A DNA stretch of 64,000 nucleotides from an uncultured Prevotellaceae bacterium (GTDB taxonomy: Bacteria; Bacteroidota; Bacteroidia; Bacteroidales; Bacteroidaceae): NCBI GenBank assembly GCA_947167515.1, contig CAMVIM010000018.1, positions 1-64,000 on the forward strand. Direction: 5' to 3'. The notes below the pieces were generated by a model that had not been told where the DNA came from, did no database searches, and saw nothing but the letters and a program-made list of their open reading frames with translations. Below, piece by piece: positions 5,855 to 49,266 of the stretch (the stretch's first letter is position 1; every line of letters starts with the position of its first letter). Made by a program: the position numbers and the translations under genes.

Positions 5855-5955
5855 CTTTCAGTGCCTCGAAATCGGTCTGAGTCACACCCCTACCATAGGT
5901 GTGAGTCACACCTATACCTTCGGTTTGAGTCACACCGATTTTGAGGCACTGAAAG
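5855..5955. repeat. 101-bp palindromic array element, copy A
   Basis: The whole 101 bp reads nearly the same on both strands: the left arm CTTTCAGTGCCTCGAAATCG is matched by the reverse complement of the right arm with one mismatch. Inside are three short palindromes of the form GTGTGAGTCACACC starting at 5875, 5899 and 5923, exactly 24 bases apart, joined by linkers such as CCTACCATAG. It lies in the 439-base gap between rpoN and dnaE, which otherwise holds only the two divergent promoters and no gene I can support. Related copies are at 34598 and 49166. Confidence 0.9.
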
Positions 5956-6051
5956 GTGCGAAAATGAGGTGCTGCCATCCCCCTTCTCGCAACAGTGCCG
6001 AAAAGGGCGGTGGACAACTGAAACGATACACGAAAAGCGATATAGGAAACG

Positions 6052-9000
6052 ATGGAAGACTTCGTACATCTGCACGTACATACACAATACAGCATCCTCG
6101 ACGGACAGGCTGCCATTCCGAAGTTGGTGGATAAGGCCATCAAGAACGGAATGAAAGGCATGGCTGTGACCGACCACGGCAATATGTTCGGCATCAAGGA
6201 ATTTTTCAACTACTGCAACGGGGTGAACAAGGGCAAGCCGGAGGAGGAAAAGTTTAAGCCTATCTTCGGTTGCGAGGTGTATTGTGCGCGGCGTGACCTG
6301 CACTCTAAAGAGAACAACAACATCGACAAGAGCGGCTGGCACCTTATCTTGTTGGCAAAGAACGAGGTGGGCTACCACAACCTCGTCAAGATAGTGAGCG
6401 AAGCCTGGGTGGATGGCTACTATCACCGCCCCCGTACTGACCATCACTCCATCGAAAAGTATCACGAGGGACTGATTGCCTCGTCGGCTTGTCTGGCGGG
6501 AGAGATTCCGCGCTATGTGAAGAATGGACAAATCGCTGAGGCTGAGAAGTCTATCGAATGGTTCAAGAGCATCTTTGGCGATGATTTCTACATCGAACTG
6601 ATGCGCCACGAGGTGAAAGACCCCTTGCAGCGGGCGAATCGCGACACCTACAAAGAACAGAAAGCCATTGAGCCGACGCTGATAGAGCTGGCACGAAAGC
6701 ATGGGGTGAAACTCATCTGCACCAACGACTCCCACTTTGTGGATGAAGACAATGCCGAGGCGCACGACCGGCTGTTGTGCCTCTCCACCGGAAAGGACTT
6801 GGACGACCCCAACCGAATGCTCTACAGCAAGCAGGAGTGGTTCAAGACCCGAGAGGAGATGAATGAGGTGTTCAAGGACATTCCCGAAGCCTTGAGCAAC
6901 ACGCTGGAGATTCTCGACAAGGTGGAGACCTACAGCATAGACCACGCACCCATTATGCCCTTCTTTGCCATTCCTGAAGAGTTTGGCACCGAAGCGGAAT
7001 GGCGGCAGAAATTCACCGATGAGGACATCTTCAACGAGTTCACGCGCGACGAGAACGGACAAGTGGTGCTCACGCAGGAAGAGGCGGAAAAAAAGATTAA
7101 AAAGCTCGGTGGAATCGACAAATTATACCGAATCAAATTCGAGGCGGACTATCTGAAAAAGATTACCTACGACGGCGCCAAACGACTCTACGGCGACCCG
7201 ATTCCCGACCATGTGAAGACCCTGCTCGACTTTGAACTGCACGTGATGAAAACGATGGGTTTCCCTGGCTATTTCCTCATTGTGCAGGACTTCATCAACT
7301 CGGCCCGAAAGGAGCTGGGCGTGTGGGTCGGCCCCGGACGTGGTTCAGCTGCGGGTAGTGCGGTGGCCTACTGTCTGGGCATCACTAAGATAGACCCCAT
7401 CAAATACGACCTGCTGTTTGAGCGTTTCCTCAATCCCGACCGTATCTCTCTGCCCGATATCGATACCGACTTCGACGATGACGGGCGAGGCAAGGTGCTG
7501 CAATGGGTGACAGAGAAGTATGGTGCCGAGAAGGTGGCACACATCATCACCTATGGCACGATGGCGACCAAACTCGCTATCAAGGATGTGGCGCGTGTGC
7601 AGAAAGTGCCTCTGGCAGTGGTGAATGCGCTCTGCAAGGCCATCCCCGACCGACTGCCCAACGGCAAGAAGATGAATCTGGCCAATGCCATCGAGTGTGT
7701 GCCTGAACTGAAGGATGCCGCCACATCGCCCGACCCGTTGTTGCGCGATACGATGCGCTTTGCACAGATGCTGGAAAACAATGTCCGCAACACGGGTGTG
7801 CATGCCTGCGGCACCATCATCTGCCGCGATGCCATCGACGATTGGGTGCCAGTGAGCACCGCCGACGATAAGGAAACGGGCGAAAAACTGCGATGCACCC
7901 AATATGATGGCCATGTCATCGAGGAAACGGGTCTCATCAAAATGGACTTCCTCGGACTGAAGACGCTCTCGCAGCTGAAAGAGGCCGTGGCCAATGTCAA
8001 GGAGAGTCTGGGCATTGACATCGACGTGGATAAATTCGACATTACTGACCCCGCCACCTACCAGCTCTATTGCGACGGACGCACGGTGGGCACCTTCCAG
8101 TTTGAGTCGGCGGGTATGCAGAAATATCTGCGCGAGTTGCAACCCACGGTGTTTGAGGATTTGATTGCCATGAACGCCCTCTACCGACCTGGCCCAATGG
8201 ACTATATCCCCGATTTCATCGATAGAAAACAGGGCAGGAAGCCTATCGAATACGACATTCCCTGCATGGAGAAATACCTGAAGGACACCTACGGCATTAC
8301 GGTCTATCAGGAGCAGGTGATGTTGCTCTCCCGTCAGTTGGCAGACTTCACCCGTGGCGAAAGCGATGCCTTGCGTAAGGCGATGGGTAAGAAGAAGAAG
8401 GACATCGTCGATAAGATGAAACCCAAGTTCATCGAAGGCGGTGTGAAGAATGGGCACGACCCCAAAATTCTGGACAAGATTTGGGGCGACTGGGAGAAGT
8501 TCGCTTCATACGCATTCAACAAGTCACACGCCACATGCTACTCGTGGGTGGCCTATCAGACGGCTTACCTCAAGGCGAACTTCCCTGCACAGTTCATGGC
8601 AGGTGTGATGAGCCGATCGCTCGACAACATTACCGAAATCAGTAAACTGATGGACGAGTGCAAGCAGATGGGCATCAACACGTTGGGACCCGATGTCAAC
8701 GAGTCGCGCCATAAGTTCTCAGTCAACTTTGAAGGCAATATCCGTTTCGGCATGGCTGCCGTGAAGGGAGTGGGCGAGTCGGCAGTGCAGGCCGTCATTG
8801 AAGAACGTGAAAAGAATGGCCCCTACAAGTCACCTTTCGACTTTTTCGAGCGAGTGAACCTCTCGCAGTGTAATAAGAAGAATATAGAAAACCTGATTGT
8901 TTCCGGTGCTTTCGACTGCTTTAAGGATGTGTCTCGAGAGACTTACTTTGCTTCAGGCGGAAAGCAGGGCGAAACCTTCCTTGACGTGCTGGTCAAGTAC

Positions 9001-9756
9001 GGCAATAGCTATCAGCAGGACAAGTTCAGGGCACAGACCTCTCTCTTCGGTGGAATGGACATTTCTGTCACTCATCCCGCCCTGCCGAAGAATGTGCCGG
9101 CATGGGGAAACCTCGAACGCTTGAACAAAGAACGCGACTTGGTGGGCATCTATCTGTCGGCTCACCCGCTGGACGAGTATTTCATCATCCTCAACTATGT
9201 GTGCAACACGAAACTGAACCAACTGGAGGAGCAGAGGGAAGAATTGGCGAAGATAGAAGAGGTGACGGTGGGCGGTATCGTGACAGGGGTGCGCACAGGT
9301 GAGAGCAAGAACGGCAAACCCTACGGCATCGTGAAAATGGAGGACTTCGCTGGTAACGGCGAAATCCCGCTGTTCGGCACCGACTGGGTCACTTACCGCA
9401 ACTTCTTCACCGAAGGAACTTCGCTGTTTATTCGCCTGAAGTTCGAGCCGAGCCGCTTCCGCCCAGGCACTTTCAACATGAACGTCAAAGGGGTGGAACT
9501 CATGTCGGAGATGAAGGAAAACGCTGTACAGAAAATCACGCTCGATGTGCCTCTGGATGTGTTGACGACTGAAATGGTGGCTGACTTGGCTGAGATTGTG
9601 AAGGAAAACCCTGGTAAGACCGACCTTGTGTTCAACATCCACACGTCGGACAGCAACAAGGTGTCGCTCATGGCGCGCAAGGTGAAACTGAATGTGACCA
9701 GACAATTGCTTCTTTTCCTCCAAGAACACGATGGAATCGGCATCAGCGTGAACTGA
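6052..9756 (+). CDS. dnaE: DNA polymerase III subunit alpha
   Basis: This is the replicative polymerase, 1234 residues. The N-terminal PHP domain starts FVHLHVHTQYSILDG, with TDHGNMFG at about residue 41. The family C palm carries GPGRGSAAGS near residue 427 and PDIDTDF near 468, supplying catalytic aspartates. The fingers region has RPGPMDYIPDFIDRK. A helix-hairpin-helix segment follows, then a C-terminal OB-fold that begins around VTVGGIVTGVRT. Length and order are normal for Bacteroidota DnaE. The ATG at 6052 directly precedes the PHP motif. The upstream gap carries repeat element A, and trxA follows after 123 bases. Confidence 0.98.
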   Translation: MEDFVHLHVHTQYSILDGQAAIPKLVDKAIKNGMKGMAVTDHGNMFGIKEFFNYCNGVNKGKPEEEKFKPIFGCEVYCARRDLHSKENNNIDKSGWHLILLAKNEVGYHNLVKIVSEAWVDGYYHRPRTDHHSIEKYHEGLIASSACLAGEIPRYVKNGQIAEAEKSIEWFKSIFGDDFYIELMRHEVKDPLQRANRDTYKEQKAIEPTLIELARKHGVKLICTNDSHFVDEDNAEAHDRLLCLSTGKDLDDPNRMLYSKQEWFKTREEMNEVFKDIPEALSNTLEILDKVETYSIDHAPIMPFFAIPEEFGTEAEWRQKFTDEDIFNEFTRDENGQVVLTQEEAEKKIKKLGGIDKLYRIKFEADYLKKITYDGAKRLYGDPIPDHVKTLLDFELHVMKTMGFPGYFLIVQDFINSARKELGVWVGPGRGSAAGSAVAYCLGITKIDPIKYDLLFERFLNPDRISLPDIDTDFDDDGRGKVLQWVTEKYGAEKVAHIITYGTMATKLAIKDVARVQKVPLAVVNALCKAIPDRLPNGKKMNLANAIECVPELKDAATSPDPLLRDTMRFAQMLENNVRNTGVHACGTIICRDAIDDWVPVSTADDKETGEKLRCTQYDGHVIEETGLIKMDFLGLKTLSQLKEAVANVKESLGIDIDVDKFDITDPATYQLYCDGRTVGTFQFESAGMQKYLRELQPTVFEDLIAMNALYRPGPMDYIPDFIDRKQGRKPIEYDIPCMEKYLKDTYGITVYQEQVMLLSRQLADFTRGESDALRKAMGKKKKDIVDKMKPKFIEGGVKNGHDPKILDKIWGDWEKFASYAFNKSHATCYSWVAYQTAYLKANFPAQFMAGVMSRSLDNITEISKLMDECKQMGINTLGPDVNESRHKFSVNFEGNIRFGMAAVKGVGESAVQAVIEEREKNGPYKSPFDFFERVNLSQCNKKNIENLIVSGAFDCFKDVSRETYFASGGKQGETFLDVLVKYGNSYQQDKFRAQTSLFGGMDISVTHPALPKNVPAWGNLERLNKERDLVGIYLSAHPLDEYFIILNYVCNTKLNQLEEQREELAKIEEVTVGGIVTGVRTGESKNGKPYGIVKMEDFAGNGEIPLFGTDWVTYRNFFTEGTSLFIRLKFEPSRFRPGTFNMNVKGVELMSEMKENAVQKITLDVPLDVLTTEMVADLAEIVKENPGKTDLVFNIHTSDSNKVSLMARKVKLNVTRQLLLFLQEHDGIGISVN

Positions 9757-9879
9757 CCGACCTGTCCATGCGCAGGACGAACTTTTTGAAAGATGATTCC
9801 CGAACGGAACGCTTCCATCGTGCCACTCAAACGAAACAACCCAATTAACATATTATTAACTCAAAAAAACTAAACAACT

Positions 9880-10191: not shown

Positions 10192-10196
10192 GACCT

Positions 10197-10523: not shown

Positions 10524-10537
10524 AAACTGCAGTTCTC

Positions 10538-10951: not shown

Positions 10952-10977
10952 GTCCGTTCCTTTCTCGTTTGAGCGCA

Positions 10978-20290: not shown

Positions 20291-20351
20291 CACCATAGCC
20301 ACCCCACTTCCTCTTTATGGGCTTTGTCATAGCAATCTTAGATTCATACTA

Positions 20352-20430
20352 TGAATTATATAATTCAAAGAATGGATTGTGCAATTCATAGTGTGGATTA
20401 TACAATCCATAGAATGAATCGTAATTCAGA
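20352..20430. repeat. Palindrome array with 21-base period
   Basis: Three palindromes, TGAATTATATAATTCA, TGGATTGTGCAATTCA and TGGATTATACAATCCA, start at 20352, 20373 and 20394, with a partial fourth at 20415; the period is exactly 21. Each is a 16-base inverted repeat. The design matches the 24-base-period elements at 5855, 34598 and 49166 but the sequence is unrelated. Confidence 0.85.
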
Positions 20431-31503: not shown

Positions 31504-33105
31504 ATGTTCGACATAGACCCATCACTACTCATCCAGCAGTTGAGCTACCAGCCCGACTCCCCCATGATATTCTCATCGGGCATCTTTCTCTTTCTCTTTT
31601 TAGGATTCACGCTCATCTACTGTCTTCTTGCCACGGCGGAAGCACGCCGCAATGGGGAAAACGCCCAGCGCATGGGCTGGCGCATCCTGTTCGTCACCCT
31701 CTTCTCCTATTACTTCTATTATAAAAGCAGCGGACTCTTCTTTTGGCTCTTGGCACTTGTCACCACCTCCGACTACTTCATAGCCAAGGCTATAGCCCAA
31801 GTGAAAGAGAAGGGTGGGGCAGCCAAGACCCTCGTCGTCCTTTCTCTCATCTTGGACCTCGGTCTCCTCGTCTTCTTCAAGTACACCAACTTTCTGGGTG
31901 AAAGCATTTGCACCCTCCTCACCGACTGCGGCATTCATGTGCCCTCTGCCATCAGTGGCTCCTACCTTCAGGAAGTGGTGTGGCAGCCGCGCGACATCTT
32001 CCTGCCCGTCGGCATTTCCTTCTTCACCTTCCAGTCGCTCAGTTACACCATCGATGTCTATCGAGGCAACATACGCCCCCTCAACCGCCTGCTCGACTAC
32101 GCCTTCTACGTCAGTTTCTTCCCCCAACTCGTGGCAGGTCCCATCGTCCGTGCCCGCGACTTCATCCCCCAGATACGCCGTCCCCTCGTCGTCACCGAGC
32201 AGATGTTCGGCACAGGCGTCTTCTTCATTTTGGCAGGACTCTTCAAGAAGGCCGTCATCAGTGATTATATCTCCATCAATTTTGTGGAACGTATATTTGA
32301 CCAGCCAGACCTCTACAGCGGACTCGAAAACCTCCTTGCCGTCTATGGCTACACGCTCCAGATTTACTGCGACTTCTCTGGTTACTCTGACATGGCAATA
32401 GGTATTGCCCTCTTGCTTGGATTCCAATTCCCTAAGAACTTCGACAGCCCATACAAGTCAGCCTCCATTACTGAGTTCTGGCGTCGTTGGCATATCAGTC
32501 TTTCTTCATGGCTGAAAGACTATCTTTATATCTCTCTTGGCGGTAACCGTCACGGTAAAATCCGTCAATATTTCAACTTGCTGATGACGATGCTCTTGGG
32601 TGGTCTTTGGCATGGCGCTTCCCTCAACTTTATCTTGTGGGGTGGCATTCACGGTGTGCTCCTATGTCTTGACAAGATGTGGCATTCCGTCTGCAAGGTG
32701 CTCAGCCCGTTGACCTATTTGCCGAGCAAGCACAATCCCAATCCGACCAAGAACTGGTTTGTGGTACTGACGGGTGGACTCATCACCTTCCACCTTGTAG
32801 CAGCCTGTTGGGTGCTATTCCGTGCCTCCTCATTTGGCATTGCTGAACAAGTGTTCCACCAGATATTCTATAAGTTCGAACCACAGATTTTCCTTCAGTG
32901 GTGTACTTCCTACAAGGCAGTCGCCCTTCTTATGCTGGTGGGTTATGTGCTACACTTCATGCCAGAGTTCCTCTCGGTCAAAGCAAAAGATTTTGTGACT
33001 CGTTGCCCGCTGGTGGTCAAGGCACTCCTCATTGTCATTCTCGTTTGGATTGTCATTCAAATCAAATCCAGCGATGTGCAGCCTTTCATTTATTTCCAGT
33101 TCTAA
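31504..33105 (+). CDS. MBOAT family O-acyltransferase
   Basis: The 533-residue polytopic protein (about ten or more transmembrane helices) belongs to the AlgI/DltB/PatA group. Signatures are FLPVGISFFTFQSLSYTIDVY, FFPQLVAGPIVRARDFIPQI, FWRRWHISLSSWLKDYLYIS, and GGLWHGASLNFILWGGIHG, which contains the conserved histidines. It would bring acyl groups across the inner membrane for transfer to a glycan by the SGNH partners encoded immediately upstream. The three genes overlap or nearly touch, so they form one functional unit. The substrate (peptidoglycan, exopolysaccharide or another glycan) cannot be told from the sequence. Confidence 0.93.
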   Translation: MFDIDPSLLIQQLSYQPDSPMIFSSGIFLFLFLGFTLIYCLLATAEARRNGENAQRMGWRILFVTLFSYYFYYKSSGLFFWLLALVTTSDYFIAKAIAQVKEKGGAAKTLVVLSLILDLGLLVFFKYTNFLGESICTLLTDCGIHVPSAISGSYLQEVVWQPRDIFLPVGISFFTFQSLSYTIDVYRGNIRPLNRLLDYAFYVSFFPQLVAGPIVRARDFIPQIRRPLVVTEQMFGTGVFFILAGLFKKAVISDYISINFVERIFDQPDLYSGLENLLAVYGYTLQIYCDFSGYSDMAIGIALLLGFQFPKNFDSPYKSASITEFWRRWHISLSSWLKDYLYISLGGNRHGKIRQYFNLLMTMLLGGLWHGASLNFILWGGIHGVLLCLDKMWHSVCKVLSPLTYLPSKHNPNPTKNWFVVLTGGLITFHLVAACWVLFRASSFGIAEQVFHQIFYKFEPQIFLQWCTSYKAVALLMLVGYVLHFMPEFLSVKAKDFVTRCPLVVKALLIVILVWIVIQIKSSDVQPFIYFQF

Positions 33106-33111
33106 CAAAGA

Positions 33112-33873
33112 GTGGAGGCAGTCAACGTGAAAGACAGAAGCCGTACAGACACAAGCTCTCCTCTGCGCCACATCGGTGAAGGACTGCGCGATGGCACTCC
33201 CATCGCCCTCGGCTACTTTGCCGTCGCCTTCTCTTTGGGCATCATCGCCAAGAAGGCAGGACTTACCGCCCCTTTAGGCTTTTTCAGCAGTTTCTTCACC
33301 CGCGCCTCTGCAGGTGAGTATGGTGTTTACACCCTTGTGGCTATCCATGCCACCTACGTGGAACTCATCGCCATGTGTCTCGTCACCAATCTTCGGTATA
33401 TGCTCATGAGTGCAGCCCTCTCGCAGAAGCTTGCACCCGCCACCTCGTGGTTCCACCGCCTGCTCATGGCATGCTGCATCACCGACGAAATCTTTGGCAT
33501 CTCCGTCAGTCGCACAGGCTACACGCCTCCTGCCTACACTTATTCGGCGGCCCTCATCTCCTCCCTGTTTTGGGCATCTGGCTGCGCTATCGGTATTGTG
33601 GCAGGTGGAATGCTGCCCACATCTATCGTTTCAGCCCTCAGCGTCGCCCTCTATGGCATGTTCCTTGCCATCATTGTGCCTCCTGCCCGTCGCGACCGCA
33701 ATGTGCTCTATGCCCTCATTGCCAGTTTCTTCCTGAGCGGCATCTGTGCTGTCGCTCCTATTGTCAGTCAATGGAGCAGGGGCACACGCACCATCCTGCT
33801 CACCATTCTTATTTCATCTGTCGTGGCATGGCTTCGACCTGTCAAAAAACGCGAATCCAATGGAACAGAATAG
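33112..33873 (+). CDS. azlC: AzlC family branched-chain amino acid exporter, large subunit
   Basis: The 253-residue membrane protein has the AzlC opening GLRDGTPIALGYFAVAFSLG and about seven to eight transmembrane helices, with NLRYMLMSAALSQKL conserved. With AzlD it forms an exporter of branched-chain amino acids or related compounds. The start is uncertain: GTG at 33112 or GTG at 33127 (the second gives KDRSRTDTSS), and no ATG is available before the conserved part. It follows the MBOAT gene by 6 bases and overlaps azlD by 14 bases. Confidence 0.9.
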   Translation: MEAVNVKDRSRTDTSSPLRHIGEGLRDGTPIALGYFAVAFSLGIIAKKAGLTAPLGFFSSFFTRASAGEYGVYTLVAIHATYVELIAMCLVTNLRYMLMSAALSQKLAPATSWFHRLLMACCITDEIFGISVSRTGYTPPAYTYSAALISSLFWASGCAIGIVAGGMLPTSIVSALSVALYGMFLAIIVPPARRDRNVLYALIASFFLSGICAVAPIVSQWSRGTRTILLTILISSVVAWLRPVKKRESNGTE

Positions 33874-34177
33874 CCCCATTCTTTATATCCTATTGGCGAT
33901 TCTGGTCACGAACCTGATTCGTGTCCTGCCCATGATGCTTATCAAGGGTCCTATCCGCAACACCTTCCTGCGCAGTTTTCTCTATTACGTCCCTTACGTC
34001 ACCCTTGCTGTGATGACCTTCCCTGCCATCATCGAGACCACTCTCACCCCTCTTGCAGGAGTCATCGCCCTTGTGGTCGGTCTCATTGCCGCATGGTATG
34101 GGTTGGGTCTCTTTCCTGTCGCCCTCATCTGCTGCATCATTGTCTATCTCATCGACACCCTCCTGCCGATGCTCTGA
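33860..34177 (+). CDS. azlD: AzlD family branched-chain amino acid exporter, small subunit
   Basis: The 105-residue protein has four hydrophobic segments and the AzlD pattern LLAILVTNLIRVLPMMLIKG and YVPYVTLAVMTFPAII. It partners AzlC. The ATG at 33860 lies inside the last codons of azlC, indicating coupled translation. The stop is 7 bases from the convergent end of the HU-like gene at 34185; no strong terminator is visible in that short gap. Confidence 0.92.
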   Translation: MEQNSPILYILLAILVTNLIRVLPMMLIKGPIRNTFLRSFLYYVPYVTLAVMTFPAIIETTLTPLAGVIALVVGLIAAWYGLGLFPVALICCIIVYLIDTLLPML

Positions 34178-34184
34178 CTCCCTC

Positions 34185-34586
34185 TTATTTGTCATCCAGT
34201 TCCGGCTGGTACTCGTACCCGTTCTCTGCAATCGCCTGCTGCAAGGGCTGGTGCGGATAGAATCGCAGTTTCACCCCCTTGATGCTGATTTCTGGGGTGT
34301 CCAGCTCCTCGGCCGTGGCGGCAGATTCCGAACTGATGACCGGCTTGAGCGTGCCGATACCGTCAATGCGAACTGAACGCCCGATTTTCAGATAATGCGC
34401 AATGCGATCCATCAGCGCGGCGACCACACCCGTCGTCTTGCTGGGATGCTCACCACACGATTCGGCACACTCCTTCACCACGTCCTTGAACGCGATGAGC
34501 GGCAGGGCGGGTGACTGATACACCCACGCTTCGTGCAGCCCGTCAGGCCGCACGATTTTCTTCTTTGCTTTCCTTACGATTAACAT
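34185..34586 (-). CDS. HU-like DNA-binding protein
   Basis: The 133-residue protein resembles the Bacteroidota HU/IHF-related family: basic N-terminus (MLIVRKAKKKIVRP), a helical dimerisation region, the beta-arm part KIGRSVRIDGIGTLKPVIS and a C-terminal tail. It should bind DNA as a dimer. The ATG at 34586 is chosen because the promoter's -7 box lies at 34716-34723 and everything between it and the ATG is the palindromic element B. The reading frame stays open through that element, which could mislead annotation into adding 44 residues. It converges on azlD. Confidence 0.85.
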   Translation of the reverse strand: MLIVRKAKKKIVRPDGLHEAWVYQSPALPLIAFKDVVKECAESCGEHPSKTTGVVAALMDRIAHYLKIGRSVRIDGIGTLKPVISSESAATAEELDTPEISIKGVKLRFYPHQPLQQAIAENGYEYQPELDDK

Positions 34587-34597
34587 GTCTTTCCTTT

Positions 34598-34720
34598 CTT
34601 TAAGTACCTCAAAAGGGGTGAGACTCTCACCTGTACCACACGTGAGACTCTCACCTATACCACACGTGAGACTCTGACCTATACCATAGGTGAGACTCTC
34701 ACCCCTTTTGAGGTACAAAG
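34598..34720. repeat. Palindromic array element, copy B (four units), in the HU-like gene leader
   Basis: Outer arms AAGTACCTCAAAAGGGGTGA and its reverse complement enclose four palindromes GTGAGACTCTCACC starting at 34618, 34642, 34666 and 34690, exactly 24 bases apart, with linkers like TATACCACAC. It matches copies A and C in outer-arm pattern and linker but has one extra 24-base unit. It occupies the whole 5' leader of the HU-like gene. Confidence 0.9.
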
Positions 34721-34747
34721 ATAGGCATTCGGCAGGACATTCGCAAA
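34716..34747 (-). promoter_or_regulatory. Promoter of the HU-like gene
   Basis: On the minus strand TTTG (34744-34747), a 20-base spacer and TATCTTTG (34716-34723) match the consensus fully. Transcription would start at about 34709, at the edge of element B. Confidence 0.85.
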
Positions 34748-34869
34748 CAGAAAGAGGGGAAACGTCACTTCCTCTTCACTCTTTCCCCTTTTTTCTTTCC
34801 CTCCGTATCAAAACAGGCCTCCTCTATCCTCATAAATCCACTTTTTTTACAAAAACTCCTCCCAACCTT

Positions 34870-34899
34870 TTTGGCTTTTCTTTTTTTTCCGTACTTTTG
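34870..34899 (+). promoter_or_regulatory. Promoter and structured leader of the restriction-modification genes
   Basis: TTTG (34870-34873) and TACTTTTG (34892-34899) are 18 bases apart. The leader to the methyltransferase ATG at 35073 is about 165 bases. It can form hairpins CGGCAT/ATGCCG (34914-34928), TTGAAT/ATTCAA (34954-34971) and GGAGG/CCTTCC just before the start. I see no gene in it; a small RNA or regulatory leader is possible but unproven. Confidence 0.55.
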
Positions 34900-35072
34900 C
34901 CCTTGCAAGCGTTCGGCATCCCATGCCGTCCGTGCGCAGACATTGTGGGCATATTGAATCATCGTATTCAATTCTGAAGGTTCTACGTTCAAAAATAGTC
35001 CGACCAGACACTACTACGAACCGGAGGAACGGGATACGTTTATGTCCGATAGTCCTTCCTTAAATAGAAAAC

Positions 35073-36380
35073 ATGGCTAAAAAGAAAATAGACGAAAAAC
35101 TGACACTTCAAGCCCATCCTGAAGAGATAACCGAGGACGGCTTGAAAATTTATGGCGAAACATCATATGAGAATCAGATGGCGGTGCTGAGCCAGTATCT
35201 GCACAACGGAGGGATTGAGGGCAATGACATTGATGCAAGGGTGAGACGCAAGGAAATAATGATGGCTATTCATGACTTTCTTGATACGAAAAAGGTAATT
35301 GGGGGTGTAGAGGAAATCGACGAAGAATATGCTTGTCGAGTGGCTGAAAGCCCATTGGATTATCCACTTTTTGCAGACTTCTTCGATGTTCCTTTCCCCG
35401 ATCCCAACCCTGCGAACTTCACTTTTATTGACCTTTTTGCAGGTATGGGTGGTTTCCGCTTGGCTATGCAGGCACAGGGTGGCAAGTGCGTTTTCTCGTC
35501 GGAATGGAACAAATACGCTCAGAAAACATATTTCGCCAACTTTGGTGAAATGCCTTTCGGCGACATTACAAAGGAATCGACCAAAGGCTATATTCCGGAG
35601 CACTTCGACATACTCTGCGCTGGCTTCCCCTGTCAACCGTTCTCAATCGCAGGTGTGTCGAAAAAGAAAAGTCTTGGCCGAGAGACTGGCTTTAAGGACA
35701 AGACGCAGGGAACTCTCTTTTTCGATGTGGCCGACATCATCAGTCGTCACCGCCCCAAGGCCTTCTATCTGGAGAACGTGAAGAACCTAACTTCACACGA
35801 CAAAGGTAACACTTTCCGCATTATTCGTGAGACATTGGAAGAATTGAACTATTCCATCCATTATCGGGTAATGGACGGTCAAACCTATGTTCCGCAACAC
35901 CGCGAGCGCATAATGATTGTAGGCTTCGACCGCGTACGCTATCATGGCGAAGAGGAATTCAACTTTCCCGAACAGCATGAAGCTACAAGGACCATTGGTG
36001 AAATTCTTGACCCCAACATAGACCCGAAATATACACTTAGCGACAAACTTTGGAAATACTTGCAAGCATATGCTGAGAAACATCGTGCTAAAGGCAACGG
36101 CTTTGGCTATGGGCTTGTTGACCTCAATGGTATTAGCCGTACACTCAGTGCGCGTTACTATAAGGACGGCTCAGAAATCCTCATCCCGCAGGGTGACGAC
36201 ATAAACCCTCGCAAACTCTCGCCTCGTGAGTGTGCCCGTCTGATGGGCTATCCCGACACATACCGTCTTGACCAAGTTTCCGACGTGCAGGCTTATCGTC
36301 AATGTGGAAACTCTGTCATTGTACCACTCATTACTGCTGTATCAGAACAAATCATTCAAACCATCAACGACTATGAGTGA
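35073..36380 (+). CDS. DNA cytosine-5 methyltransferase (Dcm/M.EcoRII-like)
   Basis: The 435-residue enzyme has all C5-methyltransferase motifs in order: FIDLFAGMGGF (I, AdoMet), GFPCQPFSIAG (IV, catalytic cysteine), YLENVKNL (VI), QHRERIMIVGF (VIII) and QCGNSVIVPL (X). An N-terminal extension of about 115 residues precedes motif I, as in M.EcoRII and Dcm. It overlaps the downstream EcoRII-like endonuclease gene by 8 bases. It would protect host DNA, probably at CCWGG, but specificity is inferred only from the partner. Base composition is more AT-rich than the flanking genes, suggesting acquisition. Confidence 0.95.
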   Translation: MAKKKIDEKLTLQAHPEEITEDGLKIYGETSYENQMAVLSQYLHNGGIEGNDIDARVRRKEIMMAIHDFLDTKKVIGGVEEIDEEYACRVAESPLDYPLFADFFDVPFPDPNPANFTFIDLFAGMGGFRLAMQAQGGKCVFSSEWNKYAQKTYFANFGEMPFGDITKESTKGYIPEHFDILCAGFPCQPFSIAGVSKKKSLGRETGFKDKTQGTLFFDVADIISRHRPKAFYLENVKNLTSHDKGNTFRIIRETLEELNYSIHYRVMDGQTYVPQHRERIMIVGFDRVRYHGEEEFNFPEQHEATRTIGEILDPNIDPKYTLSDKLWKYLQAYAEKHRAKGNGFGYGLVDLNGISRTLSARYYKDGSEILIPQGDDINPRKLSPRECARLMGYPDTYRLDQVSDVQAYRQCGNSVIVPLITAVSEQIIQTINDYE

Positions 36381-41729: not shown

Positions 41730-41731
41730 AT

Positions 41732-42747: not shown

Positions 42748-42766
42748 GTTGGTGGATGGATGTTTC

Positions 42767-45700
42767 TTAGCGGACAAGCACCTTACGGGTGGTGCCGTCG
42801 GCTTGACGGATGATATAGATGCCAGGAGTAGGTTTCCCACTCACTTTCCGCCCGTCGAGCGTGTAGGTCTCTGCCGCTTTTGCCTGTGGGGCATTGAGGT
42901 GGTTGATGGCATCGGGATCTTCGGAGAATGGGGCGTAGATGAGCTGGAAATGGTCAATGCTCCACCATGCTGTGGCAGGGAAGGAGGCTTCTGCTCCTAT
43001 GGTCAGCTGGTCGCCGTGCTGGAGGGTAAACGGTTCCAGTTCCACCTTCTGCCAGCCGTTTTTGTAGTCGCTGCCGCTCACGGTGGTGCTGCCGATGCCT
43101 GTGATGGCCTTGGCGTAAGTGGTGGCTTCACCGCCCACGGGCGTGTGGATGGCCTTCAGCGAGAAGGACTGTCCTGTAGAACCTCTCAACAGGGCACTGA
43201 GGATGTACTGACCTGCGGGCAGGCAGGTGATTTCTTGTGTCATTGAAGAGTTGTAAGCACCCGATTTCCAAATGTTAAAGTAGGGATTGTCTACATCGCC
43301 ATCATAACCTTCTTTAGTGGCGTAGCTCATGTTGGTGGTTGTCCAGAAGTCGAAGGTGAAGCGGCTACAGTCAGCATTGCCGATGAGTCGGGAAGCATCG
43401 CGTTGCTCGCCTTCCAGTATAGGGAAGCAGCTGGCGAGATGTAGGTCTGCTTCGCTCACCACAGCCTCGTAGGAAGGGGTGGGAACCTGCTTCTCTGTGC
43501 CTAAGTAGAGCAGTTCGAAATCGTCAGCTCCAGCCCATCGTCCAGCCATCGGGGCCACATTGCGGATACCGATGCGCATGCTGCCGTTGCGTACGATGAT
43601 GAAACTGATGGTGGTCTTGGAGTCGTAGTCAATCTCACTGTCGGTGGTCACGGGCTCGAAGTAGGTCACACCATCGGCTATGGCATAGAGTCCCATTTCT
43701 CCATTCACGGTGGCTCCTTCCACATGGTCGGAGGAGTTGAAGCATACGGCAGAGAGGCTATAGACACCGTTTGGGATGTCGGTAAGGTCCTGATAGTAGT
43801 TGAAGTCAATCGCCTCAGCGGTGCTGTTCCACACCTCCAGATAAGTGTCGCCCGAAGCAGCCTTGGTGAAACCGCTTGATGCGTTGCGCACACAGGTCCA
43901 GCCTGGCACACTCTCCTTCGAGGTGGTCGTGATGCCTGGGTTGACGATGAGGCCCGTGCCTTGCTCCTCGCTGGTGGCACTGTTGCCGTAGAGGTTGGTG
44001 CAGATGACACGGAAGATGTCCTTTTCGTGGTCAATCTCGTCGAGCGATACCTGATGGCTGACTTTGGTGCTCTCCAGCAGCGAACGGTCGGTCACGCTGT
44101 AGAAGTCTTGCCATTCGTCGCCCACCTTGCGTTGCAGGATGAGCTGGTCGGTGGCATCGCCGTTGGTGTTGCCAATCGAGAAGGTGATGGTGTTTTGAGC
44201 TGCGCTGATGGTGTAGTCGAGGGTAGGAGCTTTCATGCTGGGTGCCCACCATGTGGGTACTTTGGTGTATTGTGCATTATAGGCAAAGGTGGAGCGGTGG
44301 TCGCGATACACCTGTCCTGCCGGGGTGAGTCCCTTGGAGGGGTTGGCTTCGTAGAACATGTAGGTCTGCCACATGTCGGAGCCGTAGATGGCATAACGCT
44401 CAATCCAAGGGCATTCCTCTATCTTCTGGAGAAGGACTTGCAGATATTTTCTGTTCTGCTCATAGCTGGTCACTTTGTGAGAGTTCCATGAAGCGCTGAT
44501 TTCCATCTCGGTGAGCCACAGAGGGCGACCTGTGTTGTTCCACACACTCTTGCACTGCGTGTTGCAGAACCAGTTGGCATAGCTCGCCTCGTCGTAGCTT
44601 TCAAGATCCCAATAGGCATGGGTGACGGCGAAATCGCAGCGAGAAGACATGTTGTCAACGTGTTGACAGAAGTTGGTCAGATAGCTAAGGGCGGTGGGCT
44701 GAGGTGAGCCGATTCGTCCGCCAATAGGGAGAAAGTCTTTGTTGATGGTGTAGGCTGTCCATTCGTCAATAGTACCGCCACAGGAGCAGATCTTACTGGT
44801 ATGCTGTTCTGAGTGCTCTGGCTCGTTGAGCGAGAGGGAAGCGGAGGCGGTCTTGTTGTTCACATCGTTAGCACTGGGCCAGTAGAGGTGCTGGCGGCAC
44901 GGCACATACTCCAGGTCAGTAGTGGAACTATAGCCTGCACTCCACGACCAGAACCATGTGGCTCTCAATTGGTCAGCGCCACTCTTGCCGCCCGTGTTGC
45001 CCCATCCCTTTTTGGAGAGGTACTGCCACTGCTTCAGATAGACGGAGGTGACTCGCTTGGTCAAAGCCTTGGGCAGGGTGATTTCAAGGTCTGCATGGTC
45101 GGCCACATACACACGGCTGTATCCCTTTCCGCTGATACCCGTAGCGAGAGTGACCATGTGACCACGGCGCAGCACGAAGCTGGTCATGGCATTGCTGTTC
45201 TTGCTGAGGGTCGCGTAGTTGCCCACCGCAAGGGTGAACTCGCCCGTGGTTCCTTGGCATGTCATCGCGGCTTCGAGCTTGGGAATGATGGCGGCTCCGT
45301 TCAGGTAGATGGCCACGCGGCAGTTGGTACCGTTGACGGCAGTTTTGCCATTGATGGTCACGTATTTGAGGTAGGAGCTGATGACGGTGCTGGGCACGAT
45401 GTTGTCAATGATGAGCCAGGTGCGGTCGCTGCCCAGATTCACTTTCGTGGTGCCCGACATGGGGGTGTCGTTCGAGGTGATGTGAATGTCGATGGCATCG
45501 GAACGGTCAATGGTCTTGTCCTTGAGCTGGCAGTAGTCTATTTCTGTGACTCCCTGCGCATTGGTGTAAACCTCTGACTCGTAGGCTTGACGTGCCTCTG
45601 CCCATGTGTTGCCCACTATGGGGATGACAGAGAACTGGGAGTGGCTGCCTTTGGGCTTGTCGTAATAGACACTCACATAGTCCTTTCCTTTGTTTGCGCC

Positions 45701-46120
45701 ATCGATTCCAAGGTACTTGTTGTTTTTTTTGTTGATGAGGTAAGAGTAGGTTCCTTCATCTACCTTCCAGAGGTAGCGGTTGTCGTCGGGTGTCAGTCTT
45801 TCAAACGTGGTGCTATAGCTGTTGGAACTGCTGGCTGCGAGGTATAGGCTACTGCTCTTCTGACGGAGCAGTACATAGCCGTCGGTGCCAGAGGCTTCGG
45901 CCACAAAGATGTAGCTGTCCGTGTCGGCATTCTTGCCATAGGCGGAAATGGCGGGTGCAGAGCCATCCTCGTTGCTGCCGAGCAGTTTCTCGTAGATGTT
46001 GAGCCAGATGTAATACTCGGTGTTCTCTTTCAACGTGGCGTGTACACACAGGGATGAGAGGAGCAGGAGGCTGCAGAGGAACATTTTGGTCATGAAGGTA
46101 TTGGGGCGTGTAGTAAGCAT
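42767..46120 (-). CDS. GH128-type glycoside hydrolase with T9SS sorting domain
   Basis: The 1117-residue secreted protein has a signal peptide (FLCSLLLLSSLCVHA), N-terminal lectin-like and beta-sandwich domains (about 18-360), then a catalytic core with RATWFWSWSAGYSS. E433 in LNEPEHSEQ and E538 in LWLTEMEIS are the likely acid/base and nucleophile. This pattern fits the GH128 (glycosyl hydrolase catalytic core) beta-1,3-glucanase family. Fibronectin-like and carbohydrate-binding modules follow. The C-terminus YTLDGRKV...GIYIIRQADGTTRKVLVR is a Por sorting domain, so export by the T9SS is expected. Alternative starts are 46093 and 46084. Confidence 0.82.
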   Translation of the reverse strand: MLTTRPNTFMTKMFLCSLLLLSSLCVHATLKENTEYYIWLNIYEKLLGSNEDGSAPAISAYGKNADTDSYIFVAEASGTDGYVLLRQKSSSLYLAASSSNSYSTTFERLTPDDNRYLWKVDEGTYSYLINKKNNKYLGIDGANKGKDYVSVYYDKPKGSHSQFSVIPIVGNTWAEARQAYESEVYTNAQGVTEIDYCQLKDKTIDRSDAIDIHITSNDTPMSGTTKVNLGSDRTWLIIDNIVPSTVISSYLKYVTINGKTAVNGTNCRVAIYLNGAAIIPKLEAAMTCQGTTGEFTLAVGNYATLSKNSNAMTSFVLRRGHMVTLATGISGKGYSRVYVADHADLEITLPKALTKRVTSVYLKQWQYLSKKGWGNTGGKSGADQLRATWFWSWSAGYSSTTDLEYVPCRQHLYWPSANDVNNKTASASLSLNEPEHSEQHTSKICSCGGTIDEWTAYTINKDFLPIGGRIGSPQPTALSYLTNFCQHVDNMSSRCDFAVTHAYWDLESYDEASYANWFCNTQCKSVWNNTGRPLWLTEMEISASWNSHKVTSYEQNRKYLQVLLQKIEECPWIERYAIYGSDMWQTYMFYEANPSKGLTPAGQVYRDHRSTFAYNAQYTKVPTWWAPSMKAPTLDYTISAAQNTITFSIGNTNGDATDQLILQRKVGDEWQDFYSVTDRSLLESTKVSHQVSLDEIDHEKDIFRVICTNLYGNSATSEEQGTGLIVNPGITTTSKESVPGWTCVRNASSGFTKAASGDTYLEVWNSTAEAIDFNYYQDLTDIPNGVYSLSAVCFNSSDHVEGATVNGEMGLYAIADGVTYFEPVTTDSEIDYDSKTTISFIIVRNGSMRIGIRNVAPMAGRWAGADDFELLYLGTEKQVPTPSYEAVVSEADLHLASCFPILEGEQRDASRLIGNADCSRFTFDFWTTTNMSYATKEGYDGDVDNPYFNIWKSGAYNSSMTQEITCLPAGQYILSALLRGSTGQSFSLKAIHTPVGGEATTYAKAITGIGSTTVSGSDYKNGWQKVELEPFTLQHGDQLTIGAEASFPATAWWSIDHFQLIYAPFSEDPDAINHLNAPQAKAAETYTLDGRKVSGKPTPGIYIIRQADGTTRKVLVR

Positions 46121-46159
46121 AAAGATATATAAATGTAGTTAATAAGACAGATTTGGATG

Positions 46160-46167
46160 CAAAGGAA
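46160..46167 (-). promoter_or_regulatory. -7 box of the GH128 gene
   Basis: The minus strand reads TTCCTTTG, one mismatch to TAnnTTTG, about 40 bases before the ATG at 46120. The 100-base gap to priA holds nothing else. Confidence 0.45.
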
Positions 46168-46220
46168 CGAAAAAAAAGTGAAATAAAAGGAATTGTGGCA
46201 GACTTTTTTGCGGAAATGTT

Positions 46221-48278
46221 CTACAAAGGGTCCACATCGTAGTAGATATTGACACTCTTGGCAATGGGCATGGTCTGCATTTGCTGCTGGATGGCGGTGA
46301 GTGTCTGGCGCACTTTGTCGATGGGGGCTGTGAGTTCCATCTTGAGCATGATTTTCCGAATGTAGAGGGAGTGGATGCGGGCGACAGGGGGACGGTCGGG
46401 GCCTAACACGCGGTCGCCGAAGGCTGCGCGCAGTCGGGTTGCCATGTCGGTGGCGAGATGGTCGAGCAACTGGTCATCGCGGTGTCGCAGATAGACGTAG
46501 ATGAGGCGGTAGAAGGGAGGGTAGTGGAACAGCTGGCGTTCGGTCATCTGCTCGTAGAACATCTGCCAGTAGTCGTTGGAGGTGATGTGGCGGATGATGT
46601 CAGTGTCAGCCGAGCGCGTTTGCAGGATGACGTGTCCGGGGGTGTTGTTGCGCCCGGCGCGTCCTGCCACTTGGCTGAGTGTCTGGAAAGCCCGCTCGTA
46701 GCTGCGGAAGTCGGGCAGGTTGAGCATGGCATCGGCGTCGAGCACTCCCACGACGGACACACGGTCGAAGTCAAGTCCTTTGGTCACCATCTGGGTGCCG
46801 ATGAGGATGTCGGCCTTGTGTTGGGAGAAGTCGCTGATAATGCGTTCGTATTGGGCGCGTGTGGTGGCGGTGTCGAGATCCATGCGCAGGGTGGTGGCTC
46901 CGTCGAAAAGTTTGGGAATCTGTTCCTCAATGCGTTCGGTGCCGGCTCCGATGGATACGAAAGACTGTGCGGGCGAACCGCCCAGTGCCAGTTGGGAGGG
47001 AGGAGGGGAACAGGCGGGACAGCGGTCGGGGATGCGGGTGGTGTAGCCGCAGTAGTGGCAAGTGAGGGAGGCGGTTTTTTTGTGGAGAGTGAGGGTCACG
47101 TCGCAGTGGGGGCATCGGGGCACCCATCCGCAGGTCTTGCACTCGATGAAGGAAGAGAAGCCGCGGCGGTTCTGAAAGAGGATGATTTGCTCGTGGCGCA
47201 GCAGGGCGGCCTGCATCACTTCAATGAGGCGTGGGGAGAAAGCTCCTTTCATCAGCCGCTTGCGTTTGGCTTCTTTGGTATCGACCACCTCGATGGTGGG
47301 CAGTTGCATGTCGCGGTAGCGCTGGGTGAGCTGCACGTAGCCGTAGCGTCCCTTGCGCGCCAGATGATAGACCTCGAAAGAGGGGGTGGCGGTGCCGAGC
47401 AGGGTCTTGGCACCACACATGTGGGCGAGCATGATGGCGGCATTGCGCGCATGATAGCGAGGTGCCGGCTCTTGCTGTTTGTAGCTTTGTTCATGCTCCT
47501 CATCGACGATGACGAGACCCAGGTTTTGGAAGGGGAGGAAAATGCTGGAGCGTACCCCAAGGATGAGTTGGTGAGGTTTCGCTGAGGCTTGCCGTTTGTA
47601 GATGTCGAGCCGTTGGGTATCGGAGAATTTAGAGTGATAGACGCCCATGCGGTCACCGAAAAAGCGGCGGAGGCGTTCCGTTATCTGTGTGGTAAGGGCA
47701 ATCTCTGGCAGGAGATAGAGCACTTGTTTCCCCTGCGCCAGGTATTGAGCAATCAGGTGAATGTAGATTTCGGTCTTACCAGAAGAGGTGACTCCGTGCA
47801 GAAGGGTGACGTCTTGGTGGAGGAAAGAGGCTTCAATCTCGTCGAATGCCTTCTGCTGGGCAGGGTTGAGGGTTGAGAGCTGACCAGCCCATGCGCTGGG
47901 TGAAACATCACTTTTAACGGATTTCCTTTTGCGGGAAGACTCCTTGAGTGCCCTTTCGTCAGTGGGTTTCATGGCGCCAGGCAATCCTGCCTTCATCACA
48001 TCGCCGAGGGGGCAGAGGTAGTAGTTGGCTATCCATTGCCAGAAGGCGAACTGCTGCTCGTTCACGACAGGCTGTTCGTCCAGCACCTCGATGACGGGTT
48101 TCACCTCCACTCCCTGCGGGGCATGGTTGTGTGTGTTGAGCACCACACCCGTATATATCTTGTTTTTGCCAAGGGGCACAACAACTCGACAGCCTCGCAT
48201 CACTCGGGGCTCCATGTCAGGAGGTACGAGGTATGTGAAGCTGTCGAATGGTATAGGAAGTGTGATGTCAGCAAACAT
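46221..48278 (-). CDS. priA: Primosomal protein N' (PriA helicase), lacking the winged-helix domain
   Basis: PriA restarts stalled replication forks. The 685-residue product has the 3'-DNA-binding domain (residues 1-105), Walker A GVTSSGKTE (162-170), DEEH, the zinc-binding cysteines CKTCGWVPRCPHC and CHYCGY, and C-terminal helicase motifs (GTQMVTKGLDF, QVAGRAGR). The winged-helix domain that normally lies between the first domain and the helicase (Walker lysine near 230 in E. coli) is missing: only about 35 residues link them. That linker includes repeat-derived sequence (DVSPSAWAGQLSTLNP). A second insert, SPPPSQLALGGSPAQS, follows the last zinc cysteine. It starts 3 bases after the upstream barrel gene. 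Confidence 0.93.
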   Translation of the reverse strand: MFADITLPIPFDSFTYLVPPDMEPRVMRGCRVVVPLGKNKIYTGVVLNTHNHAPQGVEVKPVIEVLDEQPVVNEQQFAFWQWIANYYLCPLGDVMKAGLPGAMKPTDERALKESSRKRKSVKSDVSPSAWAGQLSTLNPAQQKAFDEIEASFLHQDVTLLHGVTSSGKTEIYIHLIAQYLAQGKQVLYLLPEIALTTQITERLRRFFGDRMGVYHSKFSDTQRLDIYKRQASAKPHQLILGVRSSIFLPFQNLGLVIVDEEHEQSYKQQEPAPRYHARNAAIMLAHMCGAKTLLGTATPSFEVYHLARKGRYGYVQLTQRYRDMQLPTIEVVDTKEAKRKRLMKGAFSPRLIEVMQAALLRHEQIILFQNRRGFSSFIECKTCGWVPRCPHCDVTLTLHKKTASLTCHYCGYTTRIPDRCPACSPPPSQLALGGSPAQSFVSIGAGTERIEEQIPKLFDGATTLRMDLDTATTRAQYERIISDFSQHKADILIGTQMVTKGLDFDRVSVVGVLDADAMLNLPDFRSYERAFQTLSQVAGRAGRNNTPGHVILQTRSADTDIIRHITSNDYWQMFYEQMTERQLFHYPPFYRLIYVYLRHRDDQLLDHLATDMATRLRAAFGDRVLGPDRPPVARIHSLYIRKIMLKMELTAPIDKVRQTLTAIQQQMQTMPIAKSVNIYYDVDPL
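46963..47020 (-). repeat. GC-rich insert in the zinc-binding part of priA
   Basis: On the minus strand CCCCTCCTCCCTCCCAACT followed by the hairpin GGGCG-gtt-CGCCC encodes SPPPSQLALGGSPAQS between the last zinc cysteine (CPAC) and the conserved GAGTERIEE. The sequence resembles intergenic CCCTCC repeats. Confidence 0.55.
47863..47911 (-). repeat. Repeat-derived junction in priA
   Basis: On the minus strand a TTTCACCCAGCGCATGGGCT palindrome is followed by CTCTCAACCCTCAACCCT, a short tandem repeat. Together they encode SPSAWAGQLSTLNP at the site where the winged-helix domain is expected. The palindrome also occurs after porM at 16202. Confidence 0.65.
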
Positions 48279-48281
48279 CCA

Positions 48282-48944
48282 TTAGAACAGGTAAGTCAGA
48301 GAAATCTGATGAGAGTTGTTCTTGAGCTTGCTCTTCGCAACACCAGGAATGCTCATCTCTGCTGTGTTGCCGAGTGCGATGTTGTAGTTGTAACCTACGC
48401 GTACGTGGCTCATTATAGTGGCACCGCAACCTACGTTCCAAGAGAATTGTGAGCTCTTCAGTTCCCAACCTTCCTGCCACTCTTCTACGTCGTCCATGCT
48501 TCCAGCTCCCCAGTGGCGGTCACCTACGTTCCAAGAGAACTGAGGGCCTGTAGCGAGATATACGCTGGCGATGCTGCTGAGGCCAACCGTGTACTTCACG
48601 TTGATAGGCAGTGAGATGTAGTGGAAAGTCTTGTGGGTCTTCTCGTATCCATCCTCAGCTTCATCGTCAAAATCAGCAGGATTCGCACCGAAGCCAATGC
48701 AGCGGTTGTCATATAACAATGATACGTCAGCACCCAGACCTGCGAGTGGAATAGTCACATCGGCAGTCACACCAGCAAAGAAACCATTACGGTTCTTCTT
48801 GTCCATAGCCACAGGAAGATTTTTTACGTTGAAACTGTTCACGTTCAGACCAGCCTTGATACCGAACTTAATTTGTGCCTGCGATGGCAGTGCGAAAGTG
48901 AATGCTGCTACGATGGCAGCGAGGACAAAGATGTTCTTTTTCAT
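48282..48944 (-). CDS. Outer-membrane beta-barrel protein (porin-like family)
   Basis: The 220-residue protein has a signal peptide (FVLAAIVAAFTFALPSQAQ) followed by IKFGIKAGLNVNSFNVKN and alternating amphipathic strands. It ends in a C-terminal aromatic residue (HQISLTYLF), as expected for a small barrel of the OMP_b-brl type. Function is unknown; such proteins are common in Bacteroidota. It is transcribed from a weak -7 match (TTACTTTG on the minus strand near 48990) and is followed 3 bases later by priA. Confidence 0.88.
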   Translation of the reverse strand: MKKNIFVLAAIVAAFTFALPSQAQIKFGIKAGLNVNSFNVKNLPVAMDKKNRNGFFAGVTADVTIPLAGLGADVSLLYDNRCIGFGANPADFDDEAEDGYEKTHKTFHYISLPINVKYTVGLSSIASVYLATGPQFSWNVGDRHWGAGSMDDVEEWQEGWELKSSQFSWNVGCGATIMSHVRVGYNYNIALGNTAEMSIPGVAKSKLKNNSHQISLTYLF

Positions 48945-49165
48945 GTTCTTTTGTTTTTAATGAAGATTGAATTTGGTTTTCTTTGGCAAAGTAAGCACTT
49001 TTTTCTTACATACGAAAATATTTCAGGATAAAAAATGCGCAGCTCCTATTTTTCCTGATGGAAAAGAGATTGAAAGCGACTCCTTATGTAGGAGTGCTTC
49101 CACGGCTGAAAAAGGACAAATGGAACAAGGAGAGGGTGGAAAGTGAAAAGCTGCCAGAAAGTCAC

Positions 49166-49266
49166 CTTCCGAAGCCCTAAAATCGGTGTGAGTCACACCT
49201 ATAGTAGGGGTCTGACTCACACCTATGGTAGGGGTGTGACTCAGACCGATTTGGAGGCACTGAAAG
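49166..49266. repeat. 101-bp palindromic array element, copy C
   Basis: The element is exactly the length of copy A, in opposite orientation. Its palindromes start at 49186, 49210 and 49234, 24 bases apart (GTGTGAGTCACACC and variants), with linkers TATAGTAGGG and TATGGTAGGG. One outer arm (CCGATTTGGAGGCACTGAAAG read from 49246) is well kept, the other has drifted. It lies in the 715-base gap between the divergent barrel gene and mraZ. That gap also holds an inverted TTATTAACA/TGTTGATAA pair (49516-49537) and the mraZ promoter region, but no gene I can support. Confidence 0.9.

Follow-up and report, generated by a model that had tools for sequence, protein, structure and literature searches.

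Phased palindromic arrays of an uncultured Prevotellaceae bacterium as candidate binding sites of a diversifying HU-HIG (PF18291) protein family

Introduction

The question raised by the DNA considered here, a 64,000-nucleotide window of an uncultured Prevotellaceae bacterium (positions 1 to 64,000 of contig CAMVIM010000018.1, assembly GCA_947167515.1), is what is served by a family of arrays in which short palindromes are repeated at a fixed spacing of 24 bp. Three of these, denoted A, B and C, had been recognized in a sequence-only reading that left open whether they are mobile repeats resembling MITEs (miniature inverted-repeat transposable elements) or a bistable RNA switch. Array B occupies the promoter/leader of a gene encoding an HU-HIG protein, that is, a protein matching PF18291. 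HU-family proteins are the standard example of proteins that package DNA with little preference for its sequence. From comparisons of the window with the remainder of its genome and with related genomes we consider it likely that the arrays are autoregulatory and dispersed candidate binding sites of a diversifying, sequence-specific HU-HIG family. The features on which the argument turns are listed below; genomes, contigs and loci are referred to by G, C and L numbers, with G000 the genome of the window.

5855..5955: array A, type T, GTSTGASTCASAC three times with a period of 24, located upstream of dnaE, past a -7-like box
34598..34720: array B, type B, GTSAGASTCTSAC four times with a period of 24, in the promoter/leader of the HU-HIG gene
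49166..49266: array C, type T, ∼415 bp upstream of mraZ
34188..34586, minus strand: HU-HIG gene (PF18291, 133 amino acids), proposed autoregulator binding array B
34716..34723, minus strand: -7 box of the HU-HIG gene, TATCTTTG, with the first unit 12 bp further on

Results

Arrays in the window

The coordinates and the design first given for A, B and C are borne out: the three elements contain 3, 4 and 3 palindromic units, respectively, placed 24 bp apart and centered at 5881/5905/5929, 34624/34648/34672/34696 and 49192/49216/49240. Counted without gaps, palindromy of the whole element extends over 80 of 101 positions in A, 70 of 101 in C and 56 of 123 in B, where a gap is required; the arms are inverted repeats. 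In a window of 51.5% GC the A/C core is matched 17 times with at most 2 mismatches (2.41 expected) and the B core 12 times (2.05 expected), and in neither case did any of 100 shuffles reach the observed count. The exchange of a T-A for an A-T pair between the A/C and B cores, described previously, is real, but B belongs to a second subfamily and is not a changed copy of A/C, and the exchange is not compensatory as had been proposed, dividing two subfamilies that match two HU-HIG types and repairing no stem within one element.

The HU-HIG gene beside array B and its close orthologues

The HU-HIG protein of the window matches PF18291 with an E value of 1.6e-12 (48 bits, cut-off 26.2), with further matches below cut-off to PF00216 and TIGR01201 and weak matches to HU in the PDB (best E 0.019). 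Among genes neighboring arrays in loci of eight genomes HU-HIG recurs in five and ranks at the top apart from a gene pair at the mraZ site. A search of 41 genomes of the genus produced matches in 20, including many more distant paralogues besides the close orthologues, of which there are 20 (73-100% identity) in 19 genomes. An array of at least 2 units lies upstream of 18 of these 20, with a single unit in G031 and only arm-like remnants in G002. When one detector with a 450-460-bp limit is used throughout, upstream arrays are found for 17/20 orthologues and for 22/291 background genes, taken from the window and 20 sampled stretches (Fisher 1e-14). The box TATCTTTG is taken to be a Bacteroidetes-type -7 box, and in 17 of the 18 orthologues the first unit follows a TAnnTTTG-like box, by 11-12 bp in 8 genes and by 33-35 bp in 9, spacings that differ by approximately one unit; in the exception, G022, the first unit is 88 bp past a -7-like box. 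This register is preserved among species, shifting by about one unit at a time, which points to an autoregulatory operator cluster as the most likely role of the array at the HU-HIG promoter.

The close orthologues carry T cores in thirteen cases and B cores in six. Of 37 genomes, 18 have a close HU-HIG orthologue, and T or B arrays are present in 16 of these and in 0 of the 19 others (Fisher 1.2e-8), the two misses being G024, with a 23-bp T array, and G031, with its single unit, arrays that our patterns could not catch. Residues 17, 85 and 99 separate the T from the B proteins without overlap, and residue 85 alone is fixed in both, as Ser in 7/7 B-clade proteins (G002 included) and as Asn in 13/13 T proteins; it lies in a part of the protein expected to form the HU beta-arm.

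The HU-HIG protein of the window is 99% identical to that of G026 and 98% identical to that of G017, and both genomes share 91% DNA identity with the window over the surrounding 2.0 kb (33001-35045), with the similarity stopping just short of a methylase gene. Since identity outside of this block is ∼70% on the rpoN side and 84% at the start of dnaE, array B and its gene look to have been recently exchanged. A T-type HU-HIG copy is also present in the same genome, on contig C31. The C-5 cytosine methylase gene (35073-36380) is divergent from the HU-HIG gene, with array B between the two.

Core type follows the protein tree

Paralogues at ∼38-48% identity have upstream arrays with a period of 23 and with other cores, CGACGTCGTCGACGTCG, GTACCCCTCGGGTAC, CGACGTGCCCCACGTCG, CGCGTTCGACGAACGCG, CGACCACGACGTGGTCG and GCACCCGTCGGGTAC-like. 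A tree of 81 HU-HIG rows places the array-associated proteins together in a single clade (100*), in which 42/44 rows have an array, and distributing 12 core labels over the tree, with none counted as a label, requires 14 changes as compared to a mean of 42.8 for shuffled labels (0/200 shuffles as low). Within the clade the minor kinds M, XC and K are not monophyletic. Outside of it 34/37 rows are labelled none, and the other three are genes of the G000 genome with AT-rich 21-bp arrays. In total 22 PF18291 matches were obtained in this genome, with an array somewhere in the fetched locus for nine rows, two of which share one weak AT-rich array. Labels were assigned by hand on account of unit number or distance for G031, G036 and G018_C81 (one or two units) and G014_C67b (array ∼400 bp upstream); where the script had picked the wrong start or array for G000_C18, G026, G017, G003, G035, G061 and G017_C53; and to name the core for G000_C42, G014_C67a, G000_C3a, G000_C6 and G000_C1b. 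The label none was given to G061_C30 (low complexity) and to the weak AT-rich matches at G003_C79 and the C4 pair.

Dispersed copies and their match to HU-HIG-linked cores

Further copies of the A/C-type element had been anticipated and are abundant. In the 3.68-Mb draft genome (74 contigs) a search with A returned 75 match rows, and the core pattern, allowing one mismatch, matched each strand 117 times, as compared to 2 and 1 matches for a reversed control. At least 39 distinct T arrays could be counted in the fetched loci, 38 of them with three units and one with two, and the gaps between units are 24 bp in 73 and 23 bp in 4 of 77 cases. The two-unit T pattern occurs in 12 of 61 genomes, all 12 from the genus of the window, with 51-68 matches in six (G000 included) and 1-4 in the other six. 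The B pattern is found in 7 of 41 genomes of the genus, array B being its sole place in G000, and the core CGAYRTCNNNGAYRTCG, with a period of 23, in 12 of 41 with zero control matches. Numerous arrays built in the same way, with different cores and with periods of 21-24, are present in relatives, together with some low-scoring or low-complexity detector matches; among the matches listed, array-bearing relatives include the rumen and other gut Bacteroidales metagenome-assembled genomes (MAGs) RUG13218, RUG418, UBA4359, RGIG3223 and Tb.RUG.104. T arrays with a 23-bp period were seen twice in G033, and there were no T arrays in the stretches of relatives picked for testing a predicted 23-bp period (genomes with a 23-bp HU-HIG array).

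In order to ask whether dispersed arrays carry the core of an HU-HIG gene in the same genome, 19 arrays from 40 sampled stretches of relatives were kept (odd center, period 23-24, GC at least 0.4) and 16 dropped. Seventeen of the 19 GC-rich arrays match an HU-HIG-linked core of their own genome at 11.5 or more of 13 positions, a level reached in 33% of cross-genome comparisons, and the permutation p value is at its floor of 5e-5 both for the full set and for the 10 non-T arrays alone. Examples are GACGTGGGGCACGTC in G007, GACCACGACGTGGTC in G020 and CACCCGTCGGGTG in G035; the two misses are the CGATGTGCCCCACATCG array of G010 and an array of G033 that reaches 10.0. Stretches L261 and L263, which account for 3/19 arrays, all of type T, had been placed at T arrays already listed, while the 10 non-T arrays are blind; the second set of stretches was chosen before its arrays were known, with several on contigs that bear an HU-HIG gene elsewhere.

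The T arrays of G000 lie in mixed gene contexts, 21 tandem, 12 divergent and 5 convergent for the 38 placed with a home-made gene caller (two arrays at locus edges are unplaced and L201 is inside a called open reading frame), so that no promoter-orientation rule emerges, and this mixture argues against a promoter-only role of the dispersed copies. Some longer copies (for example G000:C3:13800 and C19:54367) end in a direct repeat, TTGGTCAWWWTGTACGA, which has 13 matches in the genome, every one at an array. Three loci, L182, L184 and L190 on contigs C12, C3 and C7, have several hundred flanking bases in common, with short CACCCGTATCAACC-like repeats, which suggests a larger duplicated unit. 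As foreseen in the sequence-only reading no named repeat family was matched, Rfam giving no match at gathering scores, and a search of the open-access literature produced no account of such arrays or of sequence-specific HU-HIG proteins.

The conserved quantity is a DNA core

From 116 units of G000 and 310 of relatives the consensus GT-S-TGA-S-TCA-S-AC was obtained for the T unit. A base other than G or C is present in just 2 of the 426 units at position 3 and in 3 at position 11, yet the pair 3-11 is Watson-Crick in only 56/116 units of G000 and 161/310 of relatives, below the ∼0.58 expected for independent columns. Changes were counted in 16 of 25 orthologous pairs, for T arrays with a period of 24 only. 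Between close genomes (G010/G011 and G013/G061, 11 arrays) the 12 non-S positions of each 15-bp unit changed in 0/396 cases, as compared to 11/99 for S positions, 15/198 for linkers, 59/416 for arms and 226/2023 for flanks; for G000/G014 (5 arrays), where the partner loci were mostly found by means other than the core pattern, the values are 2/180 (non-S core), 16/45 (S), 33/90 (linkers), 48/170 (arms) and 255/758 (flanks). All 27 changes at S positions are C<->G, at about the rate of the flanks. Because S positions change only between G and C and the pair 3-11 is broken in about half of the units, the constraint is on DNA sequence and not on an RNA stem. A requirement for G:C in either orientation is what is expected from minor-groove contact, and the S positions may be read in this way. 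The arms vary by species in a concerted manner, many copies in G014 having AAAACAGG...CCTGTTTT and many in G000 AAAATCGG...CCGATTTT.

Gain, loss and unit number

Empty sites and variation in unit number had been proposed as tests of these elements, and one near-precise empty site and several cases of differing unit number were seen. The empty site is that of A in the nearest relative, G014 (DnaE 96% identical), where 11 bases take the place of 191 in the window; other orthologous arrays that were compared, including that of C, are present in both genomes.

5802..5992: segment that includes array A, in place of which the orthologous site of G014 has 11 bases (BLAST anchors 1430/1442 in G014, 5801/5993 in the window)

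On the window side similar CAGTGCC-AAA-GG sequences flank both edges of this stretch. None of the 20 fetched relatives showed a T unit in front of dnaE; at that place G020 carries an array that is AT-rich and has a 21-bp period. As to unit number, arrays at the orthologues of the gene at B have three units in G026, G017 and G003 and two in G036, as compared to four in B, and the number of units in one further array is three in G011 as against one in G010, an exact, two-unit difference of 48 bp between two species.

Upstream of mraZ (L240-L259), the gene that follows C, phased palindrome arrays are found by the detector in 9 of 20 relatives and by eye in four more, with many different cores. 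It is possible that this region is a hotspot or that the arrays have a role near cell-division genes. Replacement of one core by another at this site was considered and set aside; the flanks align, by eye, in close pairs only, making independent arrival as likely as core replacement.

Additional arrays in the window

Two further arrays share the three-palindrome design with other cores, as found by a detector that looks for three like palindromes at equal spacing. Its control was one shuffled copy of the window, which gave 0 arrays; the reversed window is unusable, since palindromes survive reversal.

20347..20413: array D, AT-rich palindromes with a period of 21, units at 20359/20380/20401
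58451..58535: array E, core AGTACTNNAGTACT with a period of 22, units at 58463/58485/58507

The core of D resembles that of an array which precedes an HU-HIG paralogue of the same genome (contig C6), one of the three arrays found outside of the array clade.

Discussion

Comparison with known systems

REP/BIME elements with their RAYT (TnpA-REP) proteins are dispersed intergenic palindromes in small clusters, with a diversifying cognate protein. In the present case there is no Y1 transposase in the genome, most arrays have three units at a fixed 24-bp period, and the protein proposed as cognate belongs to the HU family and has an array at the promoter of its own gene. The dispersed 13-16-bp palindromic sites of MatP/matS and ParB/parS-type systems are likewise read by one protein; the triple arrays, the array at the protein's own promoter, the several pairs per genus and the HU fold are different. 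HU-HIG belongs to the same superfamily as IHF and HU, on the basis of the PF18291 match, the PF00216 match below cut-off and the weak PDB matches. However, HU is largely sequence-neutral and IHF is a heterodimer acting at single asymmetric sites, whereas here dyad sites occur in phased arrays and paralogues are associated with different cores.

Two repeats described in related bacteria were also compared. BrickBuilt, a minisatellite-MITE of Porphyromonas gingivalis that is also reported from P. gulae, consists, in the portions of the account available, of 1 to 22.8 direct repeats of 23 nt with a leader, a tail and IS5-like ends (PMC4596501). It is similar in that intergenic tandem units of comparable length (23 nt), with predicted stem-loops, form a larger Bacteroidales repeat, and it differs in its direct repeats, leader/tail and IS5-like ends and in that those portions describe no linked DNA-binding gene (PMC4596501). 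Ends similar to its GAGACCTTTGCA (at most 2 mismatches, 300 bp) are found at 6 of 40 G000 arrays and at 10 of 195 random stretches, a slight excess that does not make of them a defining end, so that BrickBuilt was rejected as the identity of the arrays, the 23-nt repeat having been compared by description only. PINSR of Prevotella intermedia is, like the arrays, a high-copy intergenic repeat of the Prevotella lineage. It was set aside as their identity, being 188 bp long and lacking terminal inverted repeats, with no palindromic-array design mentioned in the portions available (PMC4755523).

Alternatives and points against HU-HIG as the cognate

A functionless MITE-like repeat, whose palindromes would be the termini or remnants of a transposon mobilized in trans and for which HU-HIG genes are common insertion sites, would explain why copies are mostly intergenic, number in the dozens and are patchy by species, and would fit the near-precise empty site of A, the longer TTGGTCAWWWTGTACGA ends confined to arrays and the three copies with extended common flanks. 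Yet orthologous copies keep the core far better than the flanks, the register past the HU-HIG -7 box is fixed across species, and HU-HIG subclades each have a different core. Nor is there a sign of the RAYT-type partner that had been suggested, PF01797 being matched in 0 of 1 genome searched (G000, 98.85% complete; the parent transposon was sought as a Y1 transposase only). We regard this explanation as unlikely; MITE-like spread may nonetheless be the way in which copies arise. Slightly less probable still is that the arrays serve as operators for another regulator or for a DNA-modifying enzyme, with HU-HIG genes merely its most faithful targets. The link between HU-HIG and the arrays is one of genomic association, a cytosine methylase gene adjoins B, and for many arrays a cognate was not found, all of which such a regulator could accommodate; a single outside regulator, however, would not yield cores that are specific to subclades and that match, when dispersed, paralogues of the same genome. 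The bistable RNA switch of the sequence-only reading, or an array of RNA hairpins acting in transcripts, is highly improbable. The units are palindromic and arrays lie within the probable leaders of dnaE and of HU-HIG genes, but stem-preserving covariation, counted unit by unit, is not seen: the changes at the pair 3-11 are C<->G transversions that break it, and pairing falls below chance. In addition, 5 of the 38 placed arrays lie between convergent genes, and Rfam has no match.

Several observations weigh against assigning the arrays to HU-HIG proteins. Cognate HU-HIG genes were not found for array E, for the TGTTACA and CGATGTGCCCCACATCG arrays of G010 or for the CGAYRTC arrays of G003; in G000 the CGAYRTC array nearest to an HU-HIG gene (contig C3) is 811 bp away, and in G013 the listed dispersed CGAYRTC arrays are CCC/GGG-centered while those of the HU-HIG paralogues are GTC/GAC-centered. 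G016 and G027 (L274, L275) have no HU-HIG match at E<=1e-10, yet contain 22-bp arrays with the cores GAACATATGTTC, GAGTTAACTC and GCCTTTAGGC, so that another protein family may fill the same part in these genomes. More distant HU-HIG genes are mostly free of arrays, and G022, with a T array in front of its HU-HIG gene, has just 4 T-pattern matches genome-wide. The genomes are related and not independent, and the Fisher values and label counts given above are therefore overstated. The change counts include neither L220, the empty site of A, nor L148/L266, the pair with a two-unit loss; conservation of TGASTCA is partly built in, as arrays were seeded with this sequence, and most partner loci of the close pairs, including most G010/G011 loci, were found with the core pattern, biasing the counts toward conservation. 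Finally, an AlphaFold model of HU-HIG from 6 sequences, with a pLDDT of 50, was too poor for a fold search.

Proposed mechanism and meaning

Taken with these reservations, HU-HIG proteins remain our favored cognates, and the following picture would account for the data. Clustered sites, usually three dyads at 23-24 bp, would be bound by one clade of HU-HIG proteins, members of the HU/IHF superfamily; nearly every gene of this clade has upstream an array with the core typical of its subclade. For close orthologues, protein bound just past the -7 box would repress its own gene. Arrays with the same core dispersed elsewhere, mostly between genes, would be further sites at which the protein might act as a local regulator or as a chromosome-organizing clamp, and could serve the regulation of neighbors, chromosome organization, silencing of foreign DNA or selfish spread. 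Joint diversification of core and protein would then lead to several protein-array pairs per genome. Physical binding, autoregulation, minor-groove readout of the S positions and any function of the dispersed copies are, in this picture, inferred from genome comparison.

A more far-reaching proposal, which we advance tentatively and consider possible but short of probable, is that an HU clade has become sequence-specific and has diverged, in a single genus of rumen Bacteroidales, into many mutually orthogonal pairs, in each of which an autoregulated protein would be accompanied by up to tens of phased triple sites, read in part via the minor groove with G:C required and its orientation ignored. 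Such pairs would constitute lineage-specific chromosome-organizing or silencing systems, or partly selfish protein-plus-array modules that move together between species, a move that B and its gene seem to have made. If true, the HU paralogue series, with the code of each protein written beside its gene and repeated at scattered places in the genome, would show how a fold gains and switches specificity, would provide candidate orthogonal protein-site pairs and may account for many of the intergenic repeats of the genus. The T/B pair, whose types differ without overlap at three residues, would be a direct test case.

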